Part shown: positions 40,556 through 51,900 of the stretch, in pieces
How the letters are laid out: each line of letters begins with the position of its first letter
How positions within the stretch are numbered: position 1 is the stretch's first letter
DNA from: Sinorhizobium arboris LMG 14919
Lineage (GTDB): Bacteria; Pseudomonadota; Alphaproteobacteria; Rhizobiales; Rhizobiaceae
Assembly (NCBI RefSeq): GCF_000427465.1
Contig: NZ_ATYB01000014.1
Location: 1,325,570-1,389,569 of the forward strand
Direction: 5' to 3'
DNA length: 64,000 nucleotides
The notes under the pieces: model-generated
The model's input: only the letters and a program-made list of their open reading frames with translations
Told to the model about the DNA's origin: nothing
The model's database searches: none
Translations under genes and position numbers: made by a program

Positions 40556-40713
40556 AGCCCCCTCTGTCCCTTTGCCTGAGATTGTTATCCCTTCGGCGAG
40601 CGCGAACGCTTCTCTCCAGAGTCCTACCGGCACCTTGCTGGTCCTTTGGCCTGAGAGTTTCCGGGGCGGTTGCTCCTTCGGCACCGGATCGAACCGGTTT
40701 CTCCCAACGAGGT
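40556..40713 (-). promoter_or_regulatory. tandem glycine riboswitch upstream of gcvT
   Basis: Reading the minus strand, two glycine aptamers follow each other. The first has TTGGGAGAAACC...GTGCCGAAGGAGCAA...AAACTCTCAGGCCAAAGGACC; the second has CTCTGGAGAGAAGCG...CGCCGAAGGGATAAC then ATCTCAGGCAAAGGGACAGAG. The words GGAGAG, GCCGAAGG and CTCAGGC.AAAGG.AC are the conserved core. Binding of glycine turns on the cleavage operon. No clear terminator hairpin was identified between it and the TTG start. Confidence 0.93.
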
Positions 40714-40870
40714 TGAATCCAGATAACGGCGAAGGCCGGATTTTGGCAAGGGCATATGTCGCGACCGAACATATTTTTGTCGTCCTGGCTTCATCCTCAT
40801 CGATCCTGCGGCAAATCGGCCTTTGCAATTTCGTTGGGTAGCGGATAGGGAAGACCGACGAGAGGTGGCA

Positions 40871-41357: not shown

Positions 41358-42341
41358 ATGAACAGAACAAGACTTTCTTTGCTTACTGCAGGGCTTACAC
41401 TCGCTGCGGCCGGTCTCGCCCATGCGCATGCGTCATTTGAAAAGGACACCGCTCCGGCCGGGACGACCTTCAACGCCACCCTGCAGGTTCCTCACGGCTG
41501 CGACGGCAAGGCGACGACCGAAGTGCGGTTGCGGTTGCCGGAGGGTTTCGTTTTTGCCAAACCCCAGCCGAAGCCCGGTTGGGAGCTGGAGATCATCGAG
41601 GGCGACTACCGGAGAACCTATGACAATCATGGCACCAAGGTCTCCGCGGGCCCCGTCGAAATCCGGTGGAAAGGCGGTAACCTTCCCGACGAACATTACG
41701 ACACCTTCGTCGTGCGCGGAAAGCTCGCGGGCTTCGAAAAGAGGACCGTGCTCGCCTTTCCGGCGACGCAGCTTTGCGGCGCGGACGGCAAGGTGGTCTG
41801 GGATCAGTTGCCGGCGGAGGGCGAGGACGCCCATTCCCTCGATCGTCCGGCGCCGACGCTCACAGTCACCGTGGCGGCAGGGGGCGATGAAAATGAGGGC
41901 CATGACGGCCATGGTCAGCTTGCGGCCCAAGCACTCAAGATAGGCGATCTCGATATCTCGGGCGGAACCGTAAAGGCGATGCTGCCCGGCGCGAAGATCG
42001 GCGGCGGCGGCTTCGTCGTCACGAACAACGGCCGCGCCGACGACCGCCTGCTTGCCGTCGAGAGCCCAGCTGCCGGCCGTGTCGAGCTCCATGAAATGAC
42101 GATGGAGAACGACGTCATGAAAATGCGCAAGCTTGATGACGGCATCGCGGTTCCGGCCGGCAAGACGGTCGAACTGAAGAACGGCGGCCTGCATCTCATG
42201 TTCATGGAGGTGAAGAAGCCCTTTGCAGAGGGCGCCACCGTGCCGGTCACACTGACCTTCGAGAAGGCCGGGACGGTCGACTATCTCCTGCCGGTCGGCA
42301 CCGCGGCAGGCGGCGCTCACTCCGGGCACAGCCATCAATAG
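41358..42341 (+). CDS. YcnI (DUF1775) - PCuAC fusion, periplasmic copper chaperone
   Basis: The 327-residue product has a signal peptide ending AHA, leaving His24 (HASFEKDTAP) as the new amino terminus, as in YcnI proteins whose N-terminal His binds Cu. The YcnI domain spans about residues 24-165. After a His-rich linker (GHDGHGQ) a PCuAC domain follows from about 190 with the H-M motif LHEMTMENDVMKMRKL and the later GLHLMFM. PCuAC delivers Cu(I) to cytochrome oxidase. A His-rich tail (AHSGHSHQ) ends the protein. Joining both domains in one chain is notable. Confidence 0.88.
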   Translation: MNRTRLSLLTAGLTLAAAGLAHAHASFEKDTAPAGTTFNATLQVPHGCDGKATTEVRLRLPEGFVFAKPQPKPGWELEIIEGDYRRTYDNHGTKVSAGPVEIRWKGGNLPDEHYDTFVVRGKLAGFEKRTVLAFPATQLCGADGKVVWDQLPAEGEDAHSLDRPAPTLTVTVAAGGDENEGHDGHGQLAAQALKIGDLDISGGTVKAMLPGAKIGGGGFVVTNNGRADDRLLAVESPAAGRVELHEMTMENDVMKMRKLDDGIAVPAGKTVELKNGGLHLMFMEVKKPFAEGATVPVTLTFEKAGTVDYLLPVGTAAGGAHSGHSHQ

Positions 42342-44081: not shown

Positions 44082-44720
44082 ATGACGGAAAAACCGCGTC
44101 TATTCGGAGCGGATTACAGCGTTTACGTACGGATCGTGCGGCTGGTTCTCGTCGAAAAGGGAATTGATTACGAGCTCGTCCCTGTCGACATATTCAGGGG
44201 CGACGGCCCGCCAGCGGACTACCTGGAGCGACAGCCCTTCGGTCGCATTCCCGCCTTTGAACATGAAGGCTTTTCCCTTTACGAGACCGGTGCGATAACG
44301 CGCTATGTCGATGACGTGTTCGAGGGGAGGAAGCTTCAGCCGTCAGATCCACGGGAGCGCGCCCGCTGCAATCAGCTGTTGAGCATTGCCGACAACTACG
44401 CCTATCCGGCAATGGTCTGGGGAATTTACGTGGAGCGCGTCTCGAAGCCGGCGAGAGGGGACGTCGCAGACGAGGCTGCGATTTCGGCCGCTCTTCTGAA
44501 GGCAAGGATATGCATGGGGGCGATTTCCGGGATTATGGGAACGGCGCCGTGGCTTGCCGGCGAGGCCATGTCGCTCGCCGATCTGTATCTCACCCCAATA
44601 TTCGACTATGTCCTCAAGGCGCCGGAAGGACAGGAGATGCTCCGGCAGCACGAGAACCTGGAAGCGTGGTGGGCGCGCATGTCGGTGAGGCCTTCGGTGA
44701 AGGAAACTCAGCCCTCATAA
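44082..44720 (+). CDS. glutathione S-transferase family protein
   Basis: The 212-residue protein has an N-terminal thioredoxin-like domain (PRLFGADYSVYVRIVRLVLVEKGIDYELVPVD with FGRIPAFEHEGFSLYETGAI, where Glu-Thr is the glutathione-binding pair) and a helical C-terminal domain (PWLAGEAMSLADLYLTPIFD). The start at 44082 is preceded by GGGAG; an earlier ATG adds residues outside the fold. Substrate is unknown. It stands alone. Confidence 0.88.
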   Translation: MTEKPRLFGADYSVYVRIVRLVLVEKGIDYELVPVDIFRGDGPPADYLERQPFGRIPAFEHEGFSLYETGAITRYVDDVFEGRKLQPSDPRERARCNQLLSIADNYAYPAMVWGIYVERVSKPARGDVADEAAISAALLKARICMGAISGIMGTAPWLAGEAMSLADLYLTPIFDYVLKAPEGQEMLRQHENLEAWWARMSVRPSVKETQPS

Positions 44721-44817
44721 GCCTGACCTCGAATGCAAGTCCGTTTCCTTCGGGCCGGAAATAGATGCGACCGGGAATTGCTTTTGAGCGGCTATCCGAA
44801 GTTCAACCCGTCACCGA

Positions 44818-45045
44818 TCAGCCGTCGTAATGACCGCTAAAGGCATCGTCTGCGCTTCTGACCGTCACGGCCAAGTTGACGCCCTTCACGATCGTCGCGC
44901 CCTTCGATCGCAAGTCGTTTACGTTCTGAAGGCCGCCCGACGAAGGCGGTGCAAGCGGGACCACCGTGCCCGCTCTCAGATCGGCCAGCCAAAGGCCGGC
45001 TTCACCTGAAATGCCGATCACTACTACTGCTGCATCCTCTGCCAT
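44818..45045 (-). CDS. 75-residue unknown peptide, downstream of BTAD regulator
   Basis: I do not recognise the family. The peptide MAEDAAVVVIGISGEAGLWL... is rich in Val, Gly and Ala, has no Cys, and ends GHYDG. A good ribosome-binding site (GGGGGAAAG) precedes the start. It begins 26 bases after the regulator's stop in the same orientation, so the two are cotranscribed. Because a TfuA-like gene is divergent from the regulator, this could be a RiPP precursor or a small partner of the regulator; no leader or core can be identified with confidence. Confidence 0.6.
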   Translation of the reverse strand: MAEDAAVVVIGISGEAGLWLADLRAGTVVPLAPPSSGGLQNVNDLRSKGATIVKGVNLAVTVRSADDAFSGHYDG

Positions 45046-45071
45046 ATGACTTTCCCCCTACTGTATGAAAT

Positions 45072-46985
45072 TCAGAACCCCGCCTTCTTCAGGCCTTCCC
45101 GATACAGGTCCTTGTGCCATTGTTCTTTGCTCGGGATCAGCGCCAACCACCTGTCGACATCGAAGTCTGGATTGGCCTCGCGCACCCTGTGAACAAAGAC
45201 CCGTGCCTTCTGCCTGTCACCCAGCATCGCCCAGCTGGCGGCAGAGAGCCTGTCGGCCAGGCTGGAGTCGTCCATCATGGCGATATAGTCCAGGGCGACG
45301 TCGAAACGGCGTAGCGCGTAGTTTGCGCCTGCAGCGCTCCATAGATAGGAGTCCGGGCTCAAGGGATTCAGTTCGATGGCGCGTTCGATCTTTTCGAGAG
45401 CGACTTCCGGGCGCGAACAGTGCACGAGCGTATCCGCGTAGTCCGCAATCACATCTGCGTAGTGAGGGCCCAGCGTCTCTGCCAGCTCCAATGCCTCGGC
45501 GCTTTCGTCGAGGGCGCTCTGCAGCAGCTTCGTCACGCCAAGCTCACGATAGCCGTCGGGCAGGTCGCGGCCCGCGCTTATGGCTTTCCTGGCCAGCGTC
45601 TCAGCGGAGTTCAAGAGGTCGTTGTCCCCGCGCGCGGTCAGAAGCCATTCCTTCGAGTAGGTCCGGGCGAGGGCACTGAGGGCAGGGGAGAATTCCGGGC
45701 TTTCCTGCAGCGAGGCTCTAAGCTCCTTGCGAGCCCGGCGCAGATTGGGAAGCGTCAGATTACCCAGATGTCGTCGGCCTATGAGGTAGTGGTGGTAGGC
45801 CACCGGATTCAGTTCGAGATGTGAGCGAGTCAATTCGTGGCGGTCGATCTCGCCGGCGACGGAGAGCGCAAGCTCCCGTGAAATCACCCGCCGGTCGCGG
45901 GGGAGGTTCACCGGGTCGAGCCTGAACCTCTCTGCCCAGATAATCGTGTTGTCCGTGAAGAAAATGAGCTGCACGAATAGGGTTACATTGTCTCCCAATT
46001 CGGTGAGGCGGGTGTCGAGGACGTAATCCACCGAGTGGCGCTCAAAGAAATCGAGCTTGTCATCGGTCTGGCGGCTTATCCGAACGGCAGAGTAGGGTGC
46101 TATGACCTGTACACTCCTGAGAGCGCAGAATCCGATCGTGATGTCTTCGATCAATGACGACGCGGCAATCGCCAGGTTGACCGAATCGGACTGAGTATCG
46201 GGCGGAAGCAGAACCAGCCGCGGGATGGCAGCCTTCAACTGTGCGGCAGACGGCCGGGCGAGGGAGGGCTGCATCCGCTGCGCCTTGTCCTCTCGGACCG
46301 AAGCTACGGACGGGTCGGTTGCTGCGGACTGCGCGAGAAAGGCGCTCCTTTTTTCGAATACACCCCGAAGATGCTCGGCCTCGCCGCGAGCATCGAAAAC
46401 ATCCAGCAGTATCTTCTGAAAATCCGTGTCGAGTGGATCGATCTCGAATGCGAGTATCGCGCCGTCCTTCACAATGTCGATTTCCGCGTCTGTCGTCGCC
46501 CGGCGGCAGGTTTCCTTCAGCAATTCCTTGAGGAGCGCACAGTGGCGCCTTCTCTCTTGCGCGATCCAGTCGTTGAATTTGCCGCCGGCGAAACCTGCAG
46601 ACGCGAGAAAGCTACGTCTGAGGCACTCGATGACGCGTTTCAGCCGCGCGAGTTGATGACCCTCCTGCGGTTGAAACAAGTCCAAGTCCGAAAGCAGCGC
46701 AGTGTCGTCGAGTCGCACGACGGTGTCGTTGAACGAAATGAACTGGGTTCCAATCTCGTCCTGCCGCCGCTTTATTCTCAGGAGAGTCGAACGCAAGTTG
46801 GTGAGATTGGCGCCGCGGTCCTCGCTTTCCCACAACAATTGCGCGAGCGTTATCCGGCGCTCGATCCGTCTGTCGCTGCATAAGAGAAAAGCGATGATCA
46901 GCAGCCCCTTTTCGGGAAAAGAGACGATATTCCCCTCTGCATCGGTAAGGCGTAGGTCGCCAAAACTATGTAAAGTATAGGTCAT
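45072..46985 (-). CDS. SARP/BTAD-type regulator with TolB-N-like and TPR domains
   Basis: The 637-residue protein has an N-terminal winged-helix DNA-binding domain (YTLHSFGDLRLTDAEGNIV to LRSTLLRIKRRQDEIGTQF), a BTAD-like helical region (to about 240), a middle domain resembling the TolB-N/FlgO fold of CadC-like proteins (SLIEDITIGFCALRSVQVIAPY), and C-terminal TPR repeats (ALDESAEALELAETLGPHYADV, EKIERAIELNPLSPDSYLW). It is probably a soluble activator. The ATG at 46985 is preferred to GTG 47015. It is divergent from the TfuA-like gene, and the 237-base gap between them presumably holds its target promoter. Confidence 0.8.
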   Translation of the reverse strand: MTYTLHSFGDLRLTDAEGNIVSFPEKGLLIIAFLLCSDRRIERRITLAQLLWESEDRGANLTNLRSTLLRIKRRQDEIGTQFISFNDTVVRLDDTALLSDLDLFQPQEGHQLARLKRVIECLRRSFLASAGFAGGKFNDWIAQERRRHCALLKELLKETCRRATTDAEIDIVKDGAILAFEIDPLDTDFQKILLDVFDARGEAEHLRGVFEKRSAFLAQSAATDPSVASVREDKAQRMQPSLARPSAAQLKAAIPRLVLLPPDTQSDSVNLAIAASSLIEDITIGFCALRSVQVIAPYSAVRISRQTDDKLDFFERHSVDYVLDTRLTELGDNVTLFVQLIFFTDNTIIWAERFRLDPVNLPRDRRVISRELALSVAGEIDRHELTRSHLELNPVAYHHYLIGRRHLGNLTLPNLRRARKELRASLQESPEFSPALSALARTYSKEWLLTARGDNDLLNSAETLARKAISAGRDLPDGYRELGVTKLLQSALDESAEALELAETLGPHYADVIADYADTLVHCSRPEVALEKIERAIELNPLSPDSYLWSAAGANYALRRFDVALDYIAMMDDSSLADRLSAASWAMLGDRQKARVFVHRVREANPDFDVDRWLALIPSKEQWHKDLYREGLKKAGF

Positions 46986-47222
46986 CTTCCATCCGGGAGC
47001 GTCTGAAACTCGCACGAACTCGCCCGAGTGGCGAGTGGTCAGGAAAAAATCGCCTTTATGTGGTGAAATAACCTAAATGGAAGTCGCCAATTTTTTTACC
47101 CAGCCAACAAGGAGATTCAACAATGGTGTTCTTCTTGTCAACGTGCTCCGCCATGATAGATTGCAAGCGCATATGTTTCAGATTTGAGGCTCACGCGGAA
47201 TCGCTGCAATCCGGCGGACAGT

Positions 47223-47933
47223 ATGAAGGTCATCTTTGCCGGTCCGACGCTCCATGGTGCCGTGCCGGCTTCGAACGGCGGCTATCATGTGTGGCCGCCG
47301 GCAAGACAGGGCGACGTCCACAGAGCTGTAACGGAAGGGGCCAATGTCATAGGCCTCATCGATGGCATCTACGAGCATGTACCCGCCGTCTGGCACAAGG
47401 AGATCCTGTTCGGGCTGTCTCAAGGCGTGCAGATTTTCGGGGCGGCGAGCATGGGCGCTCTCAGGGCCGCCGAATGCGCCCCCTTCGGCATGATCGGGAT
47501 AGGCAGGATCTTTGAGGACTTCTTTGCCGGCGTCTTGGAAGACGATGCGGACGTCGCCCAGTCGCACGGGCCGCCCGAACTCGGCTTCCTTCCGTTGAGC
47601 GAGCCGCTCGTGAATGTCCGCGCAACGCTTTCCCGCTGCCTCCAAGGCTCTCTTCTCACCCCCGCCGAACATGACAAGCTCCTGTCCGCCGCTCAAGCGA
47701 TGTTCTTCAAGGACAGAACCTATTCGCGGGTCGTGTCCGCCTGCTTTCCGGACAGTCCCAGAGGGTCAGAGTTGTGCGAGATCCTGCGCGACAACAACGT
47801 CAACCAGAAGCTTGACGACGCCGAAGCGCTCATCCAGGCGGTGATCGATGCGCGGGACGAGCGACTGCCGTGCAATTTCGAGTGGAGCTTCGCGCGGACG
47901 AGCCTGTGGGATACGATGTTCCGGGCTGACTAA
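47223..47933 (+). CDS. TfuA-like protein (orphan, no YcaO nearby)
   Basis: The 236-residue protein has the TfuA core beginning MKVIFAGPTLHG, then IGLIDGIYEHVPAVWHKEIL and GAASMGALRAAECAPFGMIGIG, the most conserved block. TfuA was first found in trifolitoxin synthesis and its relatives partner YcaO in peptide thioamidation. No YcaO gene is in the window. The start at 47223 follows the family norm. An FMN reductase gene follows 171 bases downstream. A regulator is divergent. Function here is inferred only. Confidence 0.85.
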   Translation: MKVIFAGPTLHGAVPASNGGYHVWPPARQGDVHRAVTEGANVIGLIDGIYEHVPAVWHKEILFGLSQGVQIFGAASMGALRAAECAPFGMIGIGRIFEDFFAGVLEDDADVAQSHGPPELGFLPLSEPLVNVRATLSRCLQGSLLTPAEHDKLLSAAQAMFFKDRTYSRVVSACFPDSPRGSELCEILRDNNVNQKLDDAEALIQAVIDARDERLPCNFEWSFARTSLWDTMFRAD

Positions 47934-48104
47934 GCGCGATGCCGGACCAGTTTGATGCGGCGCCGGCCATTGCGCCGTCAGCACACCTGTTTGGCGCAAT
48001 TCCTAATCGTGATGTCTTCATCGGAATTTGCGAGAAAATCCTAGTTTTAAACCCGTCTACTTTGCGGGAGGATTACCCTGTCACGCCTTACTGGGGATCC
48101 TCAC

Positions 48105-48695
48105 ATGGACAAAGCGACGACCATCATTGGAATAGACTGCAGCCCACGCGCGTTCAGTAACTCAGGGCGGATGCTCGGCGAGGTTCTCCGCTCGCTCGAG
48201 AGAGATCGGCGGGTGAAGGTCGTGGAACAGGTGCGTCTGGCCGATGAGCGTATCGACTGTCTCGGGTGCGAGCAGTGTTATCAAACGTTCGGATACCACG
48301 GCGACGGGATCGATCGTGCTCTGTCACTCATGAAAGATTCGGACGTGATTGTGATGGCTACTCCCACCTGCTTCGGAATGCCGCCGGCCCTGGGCGTCGT
48401 CTTGCTCGACAGGTCGGATCCCCTGTGGCGCGACAAACAACAGCTCAAAGGAAAACTCGGAGCGGTCATCGTCAACGGCGCCACCGATCCCGCGGACGAT
48501 CCGAGTGTGCGCCGATGCGCGGACAACATGATCAAGTTTTTCGAACAGCACGAGATGCCCTGCGCCCAGCCGGTCCATCTGGGGGGAACGCTCGCGTATC
48601 CCGAGCAACGGTTTCCGGACCCGCTCCCCGCCAGGACGACAGGCGTTCTCGAGCAATTGGCTGACGAGATCCGGCAGTGGGTCGGGAGCAGGTGA
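48105..48695 (+). CDS. NADPH-dependent FMN reductase / flavodoxin-like protein
   Basis: The 196-residue protein has a flavodoxin-like fold: IIGIDCSPRAFSNSGRMLGEVL at the amino terminus is the FMN phosphate loop, then CLGCEQCYQTFGYHGDGIDRAL, a Cys-rich region typical of the NADPH-dependent FMN reductase family, and VIVMATPTCFGMPPALGVVL. GGGGA precedes the start. It probably shares regulation with the tfuA-like gene. A role as the redox partner of a peptide-modifying step is speculation. Confidence 0.82.
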   Translation: MDKATTIIGIDCSPRAFSNSGRMLGEVLRSLERDRRVKVVEQVRLADERIDCLGCEQCYQTFGYHGDGIDRALSLMKDSDVIVMATPTCFGMPPALGVVLLDRSDPLWRDKQQLKGKLGAVIVNGATDPADDPSVRRCADNMIKFFEQHEMPCAQPVHLGGTLAYPEQRFPDPLPARTTGVLEQLADEIRQWVGSR

Positions 48696-48728
48696 TACCG
48701 GTACATCTCTTGCCTCCTCGCGTGGTCA

Positions 48729-48885
48729 TGGTCTGCTCCCTGAAAGGTGGTCCTCCCTGATGTATGGCTTTCGAGCCGTTGGAGGACCTAAGAATGCCGA
48801 GAAGACACAGCGCGGAAGAGATCGGCACGAAGCTTCGGCAGGAGTGGGCAGGGCAAATCGGTCGCTGAGGCGGTGCGGTCCCCGA
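48729..48885 (+). pseudogene. IS3-family insertion sequence scar, 5' end with orfA fragment
   Basis: TGGTCTGCTCCCTGAAAGG resembles the left terminal inverted repeat of IS3/IS407-type elements, followed at 48794 by a transposase orfA start (MPRRHSAEEIGTKLRQ). The frame then breaks, and a remnant in another frame reads GKSVAEAVRS, the next part of the same orfA. The rest of the element is missing. It marks an old insertion and deletion at the right edge of the accessory stretch. Confidence 0.7.
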
Positions 48886-48984
48886 TGCATCAATTCACGG
48901 CTTTTCTGGACTTTCCCGGCAACGGAAGCTGCCGGGAGATTTCTTTACCAGCGGTCTAAACCACTGATTTAATGACCCCGCTTC

Positions 48985-51900
48985 TTAGCTGCACCCGCTC
49001 GTGGCGCCGCATGTGTCGCACTTCTCGCAGGTGCCGTTCCTGACCATCGTGAAGTTCTGGCACTCGGAGCACATGTTGCCGGTATAGCCCTGCATGATCG
49101 AGCGGGCGCGGCGTTCTGCTTCGACCTTCTTCGCCTCGGACTTCGCAGCAGCGGCCTCTGCCGCGGCCTTGTCGGAGAAGAGGGCAGTTACTTCTTGTTC
49201 GGCTTCTTCGGCGATCTCCTCGGCGAGTTCTGCGGCTCGCTCCTCGTAGTCGCGCTTGAAGGCGACGACTTCGGAGGTGACGGCGGCCGTCGTCGGCTCC
49301 AGCTTGCGCACGGCATTGCCGGAGATCGAGGTGACGGAAGCGCCGCCGGAGGCGCGGGCGGGGACTGCGGTCGAAGCTCCCTTGGGTTCGGAGCGCTCGC
49401 CCGTGCCGCCGACGATGGACGGCTTGTAGCCGCGGGTCCAGCCGGTGGAAACCAGATTGGTCTTGCCTTCCTGAATGCCGCGGCCGAGCGCGGTGTTGCT
49501 GAAGTCGGAAGTGTCGACATGAGCAAGGTCGTGGCGGCCGAGATAGGACACGGCAAGTTCGCGGAAGACATAGTCGAGGATCGACGTCGCATTCTTGATC
49601 GCGTCGTTACCCTGGACCATTCCGGCCGGCTCGAACTTGGTGAAGGTGAAGGCCTCCACATATTCCTCGAGCGGCACGCCGTATTGCAGGCCGAGCGAGA
49701 TGGCGATGGCGAAGTTGTTCATCATCGCCCGGAAGGCCGCACCTTCCTTGTGCATGTCGATGAAGATCTCGCCGAGGCGTCCGTCGCCGAATTCGCCGGT
49801 GCGCAGATAGACCTTGTGACCGCCGACGATGGCCTTCTGGGTATAGCCCTGGCGGCGGTTCGGCAGTTTCTCACGGGCGCGCACCACCTTCTCGATGACC
49901 CGCTCGACAATCTTCTCGGTAACGGCGACGGCCTGGGCGGCTGCCGGCGCCTGCATCAGTTCTTCGATTGCGTCCTCGTCCTCATCGTCTTCGATCAGCG
50001 AGGCGTTCAGCGGCTGCGAGAGCTTGGAGCCGTCGCGGTAAAGGGCATTGGCCTTCAGCGCCAGCTTCCAGGAGAGCATATAGGCGTTCTTGCAATCCTC
50101 TACGGTCGCCTCGTTCGGCATATTGATCGTCTTCGAGATTGCTCCCGAGATGAAAGGCTGGGCGGCCGCCATCATGCGGATGTGGCTTTCGACCGAGAGG
50201 TAGCGCTTGCCGACCTTGCCGCAGGGATTGGCGCAATCGAAGACGGGCAAATGCTCAGCCTTGAGGAACGGCGCGCCTTCCAGGGTCATCGCGCCGCAGA
50301 CATGGATGTTGGCGGCTTCGATGTCCTTCTTCGGGAAACCGAGGTGCTCGAGCAGGTTGAAGTCGACAGAGGCGAGCTGTTCATCCGTGACCTTCAGCGT
50401 GCCCTTGAGGAAATCGGCACCGAGCGTCCATTGGTTGAAGACGAACTTGATGTCGAAGGCAGCTTTCAACGCTGCATTGACTGCGTCGATCTTCTCGTCG
50501 GTGAAACCTTTGGCCTTCAAGGTCGTCGGATTGATGGCGGGCGCCTGGTTGAGGTTGCCGTGGCCGACGGCATAAGCCTCGATCTCGGCGATCTGACTTT
50601 CCGAATAGCCGAGCGTGCGCAGCGCCTCGGGAACCGCACGGTTGATGATCTTGAAATAGCCGCCGCCGGCGAGCTTCTTGAATTTCACCAGGGCAAAATC
50701 GGGCTCGATACCGGTCGTGTCGCAGTCCATGACAAGGCCGATCGTGCCGGTCGGCGCGATCACGGTCGCCTGGGCGTTGCGGTAGCCGTGCTTCTCGCCG
50801 AGCTCGACCGCCTTGTCCCAGGCGCTCTTGGCATGGGCGATCAGATCCTGGTCCGGGCAATCGCCGTGGACGAGCGCGACCGGGTTGACGGACAGACCCT
50901 CGTAACCGGCGGTCTCGCCGTGAGCCGCGCGGCGGTGATTGCGCATGACGCGCAGCATGTTGTCGCGGTTCGGCGCAAAGCCGGGGAAGGGCCCGAGCTT
51001 TGCGGATATCTCGGCCGAGGTCGCATAGGCGATGCCGGTCATGATCGCGGTCAGGGCGCCGGCGATGGCGCGGCCCTCGGGCGAGTCATAGGGAATGCCT
51101 GACGACATCAGCAGGCCGCCGATATTGGCATAGCCGAGGCCGAGCGTGCGGTATTCGTAGGAGAGCTCGGCGATCTCGCGGGACGGGAACTGGGCCATCA
51201 TGACAGAGACTTCGAGAACGACCGTCCAGAGGCGGACGGCATGTTCGTAGTCGCCGATATTGATTCGCTTGGTCGCGGCATCCTTGAACTGCATCAGGTT
51301 GAGCGAAGCGAGATTGCACGCCGTGTCGTCGAGGAACATGTATTCCGAGCACGGGTTGGAGGCGCGGATCGGGCCTGCAGCCGGGCAGGTGTGCCAATCG
51401 TTCATGGTCGTGTTGAAGTGCAGGCCGGGATCGGCCGAGGCCCAGGCGGCATGGGAGATCGACTCCCAGAGGTCGCGCGCCTTCAGGGTCTTCATGACGC
51501 GGCCGTCCTTGCGGGCGGTCAGGTGCCATTCACCATCAGCCTCCACGGCGCGCAGGAAGTCGTCCTTGATCGAGACGGAGTTGTTGGAGTTCTGGCCCGA
51601 AACCGTGAGGTAGGCCTCCGAATCCCAATCCGTGTCGTAGGTCTTGAACTCGATGTCCTTATAGCCCTGCCGCGCGAACTGAATGACGCGCTTGACGTAG
51701 TTTTCCGGAACCAGCGCCTGCTTGGCGGCGCGGATCTCTCGCTTCAGTGCCGGGTTCTGCTTGGGATCGAAGCAGGCATCGTCGCTGCCGTCGCAATTGA
51801 TGCAGGCCTTCATGATCGCCTTCAGGTGCTTGGCGACGATCTTCGAGCCGGTGACCAGGGCGGCGACTTTCTGCTCTTCCTTGACCTTCCAGTTGATATA

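Follow-up and report, generated by a model that had tools for sequence, protein, structure and literature searches.

The name tfuA is said to derive from the pathway of a Rhizobium peptide antibiotic, trifolitoxin, described by Breil in 1996. YcaO proteins activate backbone amides with ATP, and YcaO together with TfuA produces thioamides, according to the accessible parts of the literature (PMC5589413, PMC6511847, PMC8120280; the same scope applies to all papers cited here by PMC number); TfuA is described as a hydrolase that works with thiocarboxylated ThiS-like sulfur carriers (PMC13063428). Here we report on a tfuA gene of Sinorhizobium arboris LMG 14919 that has no ycaO beside it. The gene lies in a stretch of 64,000 nucleotides (the window; C4:1325570-1389569 of genome G000, 6.85 Mb in 7 contigs), in a module with genes for a regulator, a 75-residue peptide and a flavin mononucleotide (FMN) reductase. 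We propose, with a probability of roughly 0.7, that the regulator, the peptide and the TfuA of the window, together with a lone YcaO encoded 836 kb away on the same contig, constitute one system for a ribosomally synthesized and post-translationally modified peptide (RiPP).

Thiovarsolin- and thioviridamide-like clusters likewise combine TfuA, YcaO and a short precursor with a variable number of core repeats, and the precursors of the thiovarsolin family range from non-repeating ones to those with five repeats (PMC6511847). The S. arboris system differs from thiovarsolin-type clusters in that its parts are split over two loci and were apparently exchanged between lineages; no further tailoring gene was recognised in its conserved set, and its precursor is likened to VarA here by architecture. 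Glycine thioamidation of McrA in methanogens shares the TfuA-YcaO pair, but the substrate there is a large enzyme (PMC5589413). Nitrile-hydratase-like leader peptides are structured leaders recognised by a YcaO, as we propose for the peptide here; they belong to another leader family and to an azoline-forming YcaO (PMC12455567).

The chemistry family and rhizobial YcaO-TfuA clusters are already known. Malit et al. 2021 reported more than 500 TfuA-related proteobacterial clusters in Rhizobium, some in Sinorhizobium, and the TfuA-YcaO thioamidated RiPPs known by that year were all from Actinobacteria (PMC8120280). The canonical operons described below are probably among those clusters, and split systems fall outside that survey because its selection required adjacent ycaO and tfuA-like genes (PMC8120280). 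We found no mention of the peptide, of tandem cores or of splitting in the accessible main text of that paper, supplements not being covered (PMC8120280). In a search of the open-licence literature, outside which most subscription journals and supplements lie, we found no earlier account of a precursor family with tandem cores, of the five-gene operon or of splitting with partner exchange, and no paper on TfuA in S. meliloti.

The TfuA module of the window and the lone YcaO of its genome

The four genes of the module, which an original prediction made from the window sequence had placed here, were confirmed by open reading frames (ORFs) and Pfam. The features are as follows, with the basis of each assignment.

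44714..48982, no strand: insertion of 4.27 kb carrying the whole module (regulator-peptide, divergent from TfuA-FMN reductase); empty sites in relatives
44818..45045, minus strand: precursor-like peptide (PEP) of 75 residues, RiPP-like; family distribution, ycaO-adjacent position and AlphaFold2 model
44821..44841, minus strand: predicted core FSGHYDG, peptide residues 69-75, single copy; site of the motif that relatives repeat in tandem
45072..46985, minus strand: transcriptional regulator with TPR repeats, BTAD-like; the ORF reaches a GTG at 47015
46986..47222, no strand: divergent intergenic region between tfuA and the regulator-peptide operon; sequence
47223..47933, plus strand: TfuA protein without adjacent YcaO; PF07812, E 8e-43
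48105..48695, plus strand: NADPH-dependent FMN reductase, probable passenger of the insertion; PF03358, E 3e-13

The TfuA assignment was clear (145.5 bits against a PF07812 cut-off of 30), and the sole PDB match was 6xp8_A (E 8e-34). Against the NCBIfam model for McrA-glycine thioamidation (NF033432) the protein scored 174.7 bits, below the cut-off of 235.2. The original prediction had also noted that no YcaO lies at this locus and had offered a YcaO encoded elsewhere as one explanation, and the genome search agreed with both. The genome holds two YcaO and two TfuA genes, and both YcaO genes, starting at C4:1988979 and C4:2209380, lie outside the window. The one nearer to the window is already paired with another TfuA, in an adjacent YcaO-TfuA pair of another type (type 2, L002) at C4:1988.4-1989.9 kb. 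The other, at C4:2209380-2210321 (L001, L205), has no TfuA in its 19-kb stretch; in the tree it stands among the YcaOs of peptide-TfuA operons, and the L002 YcaO belongs to a distant group of six. A uL16-type identity of the lone YcaO (the type is from PMC13063428) was tentatively rejected on this grouping with peptide-associated YcaOs, though no uL16-type row was on the tree. A gene for an AAC(3)-type aminoglycoside acetyltransferase adjoins the YcaO site both in L001, by ORF reading, and in S. meliloti Ak57 (L315), where it is annotated.

Co-occurrence of unpaired TfuA and unpaired YcaO

A TfuA was counted as unpaired in the genus survey when no YcaO lay within 2.5 kb. Unpaired TfuA genes occurred in 20 of the 33 genomes of the genus, each of which also had an unpaired YcaO (20/20). 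The remaining 13 genomes comprised 11 with neither unpaired gene and two (G218 and G237) with an unpaired YcaO only. In G225 both unpaired genes share one locus, with approximately 3 kb between them; in G227 two unpaired YcaOs are present. The peptide gene adjoins the lone YcaO in 19 of the 20 genomes and stands beside TfuA only in the window genome.

Outside the genus, all 13 chosen genomes with an unpaired TfuA had an unpaired YcaO. The full choice was 22 genomes: these 13, five genus genomes already counted, G214 with its TfuA and YcaO approximately 3 kb apart, and G003, G009 and G029, which carry an isolated regulator-peptide pair and whose YcaO and TfuA genes are adjacent pairs only. A sample of 199 genomes of the taxonomic family had an unpaired TfuA in three, all of the window genus and all with an unpaired YcaO (3/3). 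YcaO and TfuA were both present in 29 of 29 family genomes with the peptide, as against 25 of 170 without it.

The peptide family and its operons

The 75-residue peptide had no Pfam or NCBIfam match at E 1. Searches with the peptide itself found eight other proteins at E 1e-24 to 2e-17, and a profile search found 46; the names listed for the matches are hypothetical or uncharacterized protein. The family was found in 29 of the 199 family genomes and in every one of the 33 of the genus, window genome included. Because eight other proteins match and the family recurs across genomes, the ORF is more than a chance one. We aligned the window peptide with 74 of 86 non-redundant peptides (alignment A3), leaving outside six peptides longer than 100 residues, those of L052, L078, L088, L090 and L132 and the second ORF of L043. 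The family has a conserved N-terminal part, with the consensus MAxVVVIGxxGExGLWxADLxAGTV, and a C-terminal core around SG-x-x-D. Among the 75 aligned peptides the core glycine was present in 70, and the acidic position held Asp in 56 of them and Glu in another 15; the two intervening residues are highly variable. Tandem cores, exact or near, were seen in 8 of the 75 (L046, L053, L061, L089, L092, L097, L104 and L112) and, outside the alignment, in L052 and L093 and in the second, longer peptides encoded in L065, L066, L067, L074, L075 and L078. Because relatives repeat the core, as a RiPP precursor would, the peptide is best read as a RiPP-like precursor with an N-terminal part and a C-terminal core, and this core would be the part that is modified. 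The longer second peptides just listed, with repeated units such as EPKEAAFSGHVYRTP, lie directly upstream of a YcaO-TfuA pair in their six loci, and the TfuAs of these pairs belong to the same tree set as the window TfuA.

Regulator, peptide, YcaO and TfuA occur together in 25 of 30 peptide-centred loci, and the peptide gene stands just upstream of ycaO in these canonical operons. Two further loci (L051 and L056) have regulator, peptide and YcaO only. A regulator homologue adjoins the peptide in 30 of 30 peptide-centred loci. In the survey of TfuA neighbourhoods that the original prediction had proposed as a check, the peptide was present in 71 and YcaO in 64 of the 80 best TfuA-centred loci, within the fetched stretch; these loci were picked by similarity to the window TfuA, and some genomes contribute more than one. 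The YcaO-less layout of the window recurs in 12 other loci. That the 75-residue peptide is a candidate substrate, as first suggested from the window, is supported by its place in the canonical operons and by the tandem cores of its relatives.

An XRE-type helix-turn-helix gene (HTH_3) lies just upstream of the regulator, on the same strand, in 68 of 100 regulator-bearing loci, a count that includes the window and some overlapping loci; we therefore regard XRE-regulator-peptide-YcaO-TfuA as the fullest form of the operon. The XRE gene is present in no window-type locus. The description of the window regulator as a BTAD (SARP-type) protein is a weak one: two of five homologues barely passed the PF03704 cut-off of 22.1 bits (22.3 and 22.7), but Pfam gave the window protein TPR repeats only, with no PF03704 hit at E 1. 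Its match to the HilA/EilA model was weak (28 bits, cut-off 589). Judged from the N-terminus of one homologue, the ATG at 46985 is a more likely start than the GTG at 47015.

Several other arrangements were encountered. L088 is a decayed second window-type module, with the regulator in pieces and the TfuA in two, in a genome that also has the intact L076. L114, L124, L127 and L172 are YcaO-TfuA pairs near which neither regulator nor peptide was found; L172 belongs to G029, where the solitary regulator-peptide L045 lies elsewhere, perhaps a third way of splitting. Rhizobium sp. BK376 has a TfuA-YcaO pair in reversed order and, at another site, a peptide-YcaO without TfuA in the fetched stretch (L277, L289).

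Different histories of TfuA and YcaO

Trees of TfuA and YcaO were made with 120 rows each, of 152 and 133 hidden Markov model hits, respectively; copies of twice-fetched genes, the L088/L199 fragments and a single paired TfuA (L159) were kept off them. The window TfuA was placed in a set of 24 (SH-aLRT 99) with 12 same-layout TfuAs, seven paired ones and four others. The lone YcaOs of window-type genomes (11 of 13 available) fell in three places: four within a group that includes the paired YcaOs of L089-L098, six close to those of L050 and its relatives, and that of the window genome among the Sinorhizobium ones. This distribution takes three changes on the tree, and also three when only starred branches are counted. 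From lone YcaOs in three places and TfuAs in one set it follows that the YcaO and TfuA of one genome differ in history. The nearest relative of the window genome's lone YcaO was that of S. meliloti 4H41, at 80% identity.

Synteny recorded what is missing around the lone YcaOs. The YcaO loci of the window genome (L205) and of S. meliloti 4H41 (L206) align at 89% over a 10-kb stretch that runs up to the start of YcaO. After that point 2.3 kb of L206, holding the regulator and the peptide, has no counterpart in L205; the match then resumes at 81%, and beyond it a further 2 kb of L206 lacks an L205 counterpart. L205 keeps recognisable sequence around the peptide stop and YcaO start, and approximately 50 bp upstream of it L205 continues with what in L206 is the upstream region of the regulator. 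In three Rhizobium loci (L208, L209 and L210) the flanks are 75-90% identical to those of the canonical L097 and L098, with the regulator-peptide part and TfuA gone and YcaO kept; the three probably go back to one event. No canonical locus syntenic with L207, L211 or L212 was found. The XRE gene still stands just upstream of YcaO in six of these six Rhizobium loci (L207-L212) and is absent at L205, and an XRE gene lies directly upstream of the unpaired TfuAs of L120 (S. meliloti 4H41), L213 and L214.

Mixed sets were also found. S. saheli has a regulator-peptide-YcaO of Sinorhizobium type, alongside a TfuA from the set to which that of the window belongs (L069, L215). A longer cassette, with regulator-peptide divergent from second peptide-YcaO-TfuA, occurs in three genomes, of which those of L066 and L074 also have a lone YcaO and that of L075 a complete canonical operon. 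Matches to the XRE-TfuA stretch of 4H41 were found in 71 plasmid records, of which 68 are from Sinorhizobium; the 15 matches listed are plasmid records of 1.6-2.0 Mb, those of S. meliloti BL225C and Rm41 among them. In the same collection the regulator-peptide-YcaO stretch had four matching records, which at 3.5-3.7 Mb are the size of a chromosome. S. meliloti K101, M103 and C101 have both halves, on separate records. In S. meliloti Ak57, LZK74_28495 to 28485 are annotated as an adenylate cyclase, a hypothetical protein and a YcaO-like protein, on a 3.7-Mb record that is titled plasmid pSymB and, to judge from its size, is probably the chromosome.

Proposed system and alternative explanations

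In the system that we propose, the regulator most likely drives expression of the peptide; the lone YcaO would bind the folded N-terminal part of the peptide and use ATP to activate a backbone amide in the C-terminal SG-x-x-D core, and the window TfuA, working with this YcaO in trans, would supply sulfide, so that a thioamide forms. By analogy with described TfuA-YcaO systems the modification is probably thioamidation. Ancestrally the genes for regulator, peptide, YcaO and TfuA probably formed a single operon, in many cases preceded by an XRE gene; in the window genome the 4.27-kb island would have brought regulator, peptide and TfuA, the native regulator-peptide being lost and the native YcaO kept. 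Since the peptide is present in all 33 genus genomes, our guess is that its product has a general role rather than being a strain-specific antibiotic.

Several observations weigh against this proposal. The window peptide has a single core. The trees were quick searches without bootstraps. The genus co-occurrence (Fisher p 4e-7) is uncorrected for shared ancestry, unpaired YcaOs are no rarity (they occur in 22 of 199 family genomes), and in G218 and G237, each with three adjacent pairs, an unpaired YcaO exists without an unpaired TfuA. Three of the 30 peptide-centred loci (L036, L045 and L058) hold regulator and peptide without YcaO or TfuA in the fetched stretch, in genomes with YcaO-TfuA pairs elsewhere; the peptide can thus occur away from the two enzymes. 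Comparison of the 300 bp upstream of tfuA with those of the partner YcaO gave no common motif in 11 genomes and no shared operator for the window; the best ungapped matches exceeded the largest of six simple shuffles in two of the 11 (L079/L171 and L083/L173), the window not among them. Finally, the type 2 pair of the window genome could in principle serve the peptide.

The alternative that survives best, although we consider it unlikely, is that the product is not a thioamide but, for example, an azoline, or that the peptide is a folded protein partner instead of a released RiPP. The AlphaFold2 model of the peptide, in which three strands and two helices, the second one short, precede the tail, was folded with good confidence (mean predicted local distance difference test score 86, predicted template-modelling score 0.67; five peptide models span 86 to 62), and the core is both short and conserved. 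Neither a protease nor a transporter was recognised with the operon, among approximately 30 recurring ORF families that include some antisense artefacts and are mostly not identified. However, TfuA accompanies thioamidation in the published systems as far as those papers were accessible (PMC5589413, PMC6511847), the closest PDB relative of the lone YcaO is MJ1094 (6pe3), and the tandem cores of the relatives fit a precursor.

It is less probable still that the window TfuA partners the YcaO of the type 2 pair and that the lone YcaO has a different role. The type 2 pair is present in the genome, and adjacent pairs, some of which were not typed, occur in all 33 genus genomes; but the lone YcaO, and not the distant L002 YcaO, groups with the peptide-associated YcaOs, and in three Rhizobium genomes that show the window arrangement (G199-G201) a single TfuA and a single YcaO, unpaired, are the only such genes.

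The original prediction had also considered a remnant, and a decaying relic of a once complete cluster is an improbable account of the module. Compared with L066, L074 and L075 the window does lack the second peptide and YcaO, and a decayed copy of its layout exists (L088). Against this, the window genes are all open, and the YcaO-less layout is shared by the 12 other loci. The ratio of nonsynonymous to synonymous substitution rates (dN/dS) of the window TfuA was 0.10-0.16 against three relatives, a rough figure given dS of 1.7-2.6. Lone window-type YcaOs gave dN/dS of 0.10-0.25 (11 comparisons), compared with 0.15-0.20 for paired ones (five comparisons), again rough, with several dS values above 1. 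All 46 columns that are invariant in 116 other rows were kept by 10 of the 11 lone YcaOs, and the eleventh kept 44; the lone YcaOs do not look decayed. A TfuA working on the peptide alone in a YcaO-free system, another early suggestion prompted by the missing YcaO of the window, is scarcely credible, since every examined genome with an unpaired TfuA has an unpaired YcaO elsewhere.

Beyond the split system of the window genome, we tentatively extend the proposal, at somewhat less than even odds: rhizobia may carry a dispersed thioamidation system whose parts were independently lost, moved, replaced and rebuilt into working sets of mixed ancestry, with a small thioamidated SG-x-x-D peptide in every sampled Sinorhizobium species and, in S. 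meliloti, the TfuA on a replicon of pSymB size and the rest on the chromosome. If true, a non-actinobacterial thioamidated peptide would occur genus-wide in Sinorhizobium, including the model legume symbiont S. meliloti; this would be the first YcaO-TfuA partner exchange in trans within the literature searched, and split arrangements would serve as natural genetic tests of YcaO-TfuA partnering. Surveys that mine side-by-side ycaO and tfuA genes would miss such split systems.

The insertion and neighbouring features

For the empty-site comparison the genomes of six relatives were fetched, three of which had no match to the left flank. Window positions 44713, where the GST gene ends, and 48983, at the end of nrdJ, are separated by 227-228 bp in L309, from the S. 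meliloti 4H41 genome, and in L310; in a third empty site, L312, 82 bp separate slightly shifted ends. Because the flanks adjoin so closely in these empty sites, the module probably arrived as one piece. As to the insertion mechanism, the repeats of at least 14 bases in 44500-49200 were two-copy families, and no pair lay at the insertion borders.

The FMN reductase, which had been counted as part of the module, was rejected as a conserved member, since the other 110 loci, some of which are cut by contig ends, yielded no homologue at E 1e-4. Because homologues are missing from these loci we treat the gene as a passenger, probably cargo that arrived with the insertion.

Elsewhere in the window, a glycine riboswitch (RF00504, 62.5 bits) was found at 40629-40716 on the minus strand, and the gene at 41358-42341 on the plus strand encodes a single protein that combines DUF1775 and PCu(A)C copper-chaperone domains.

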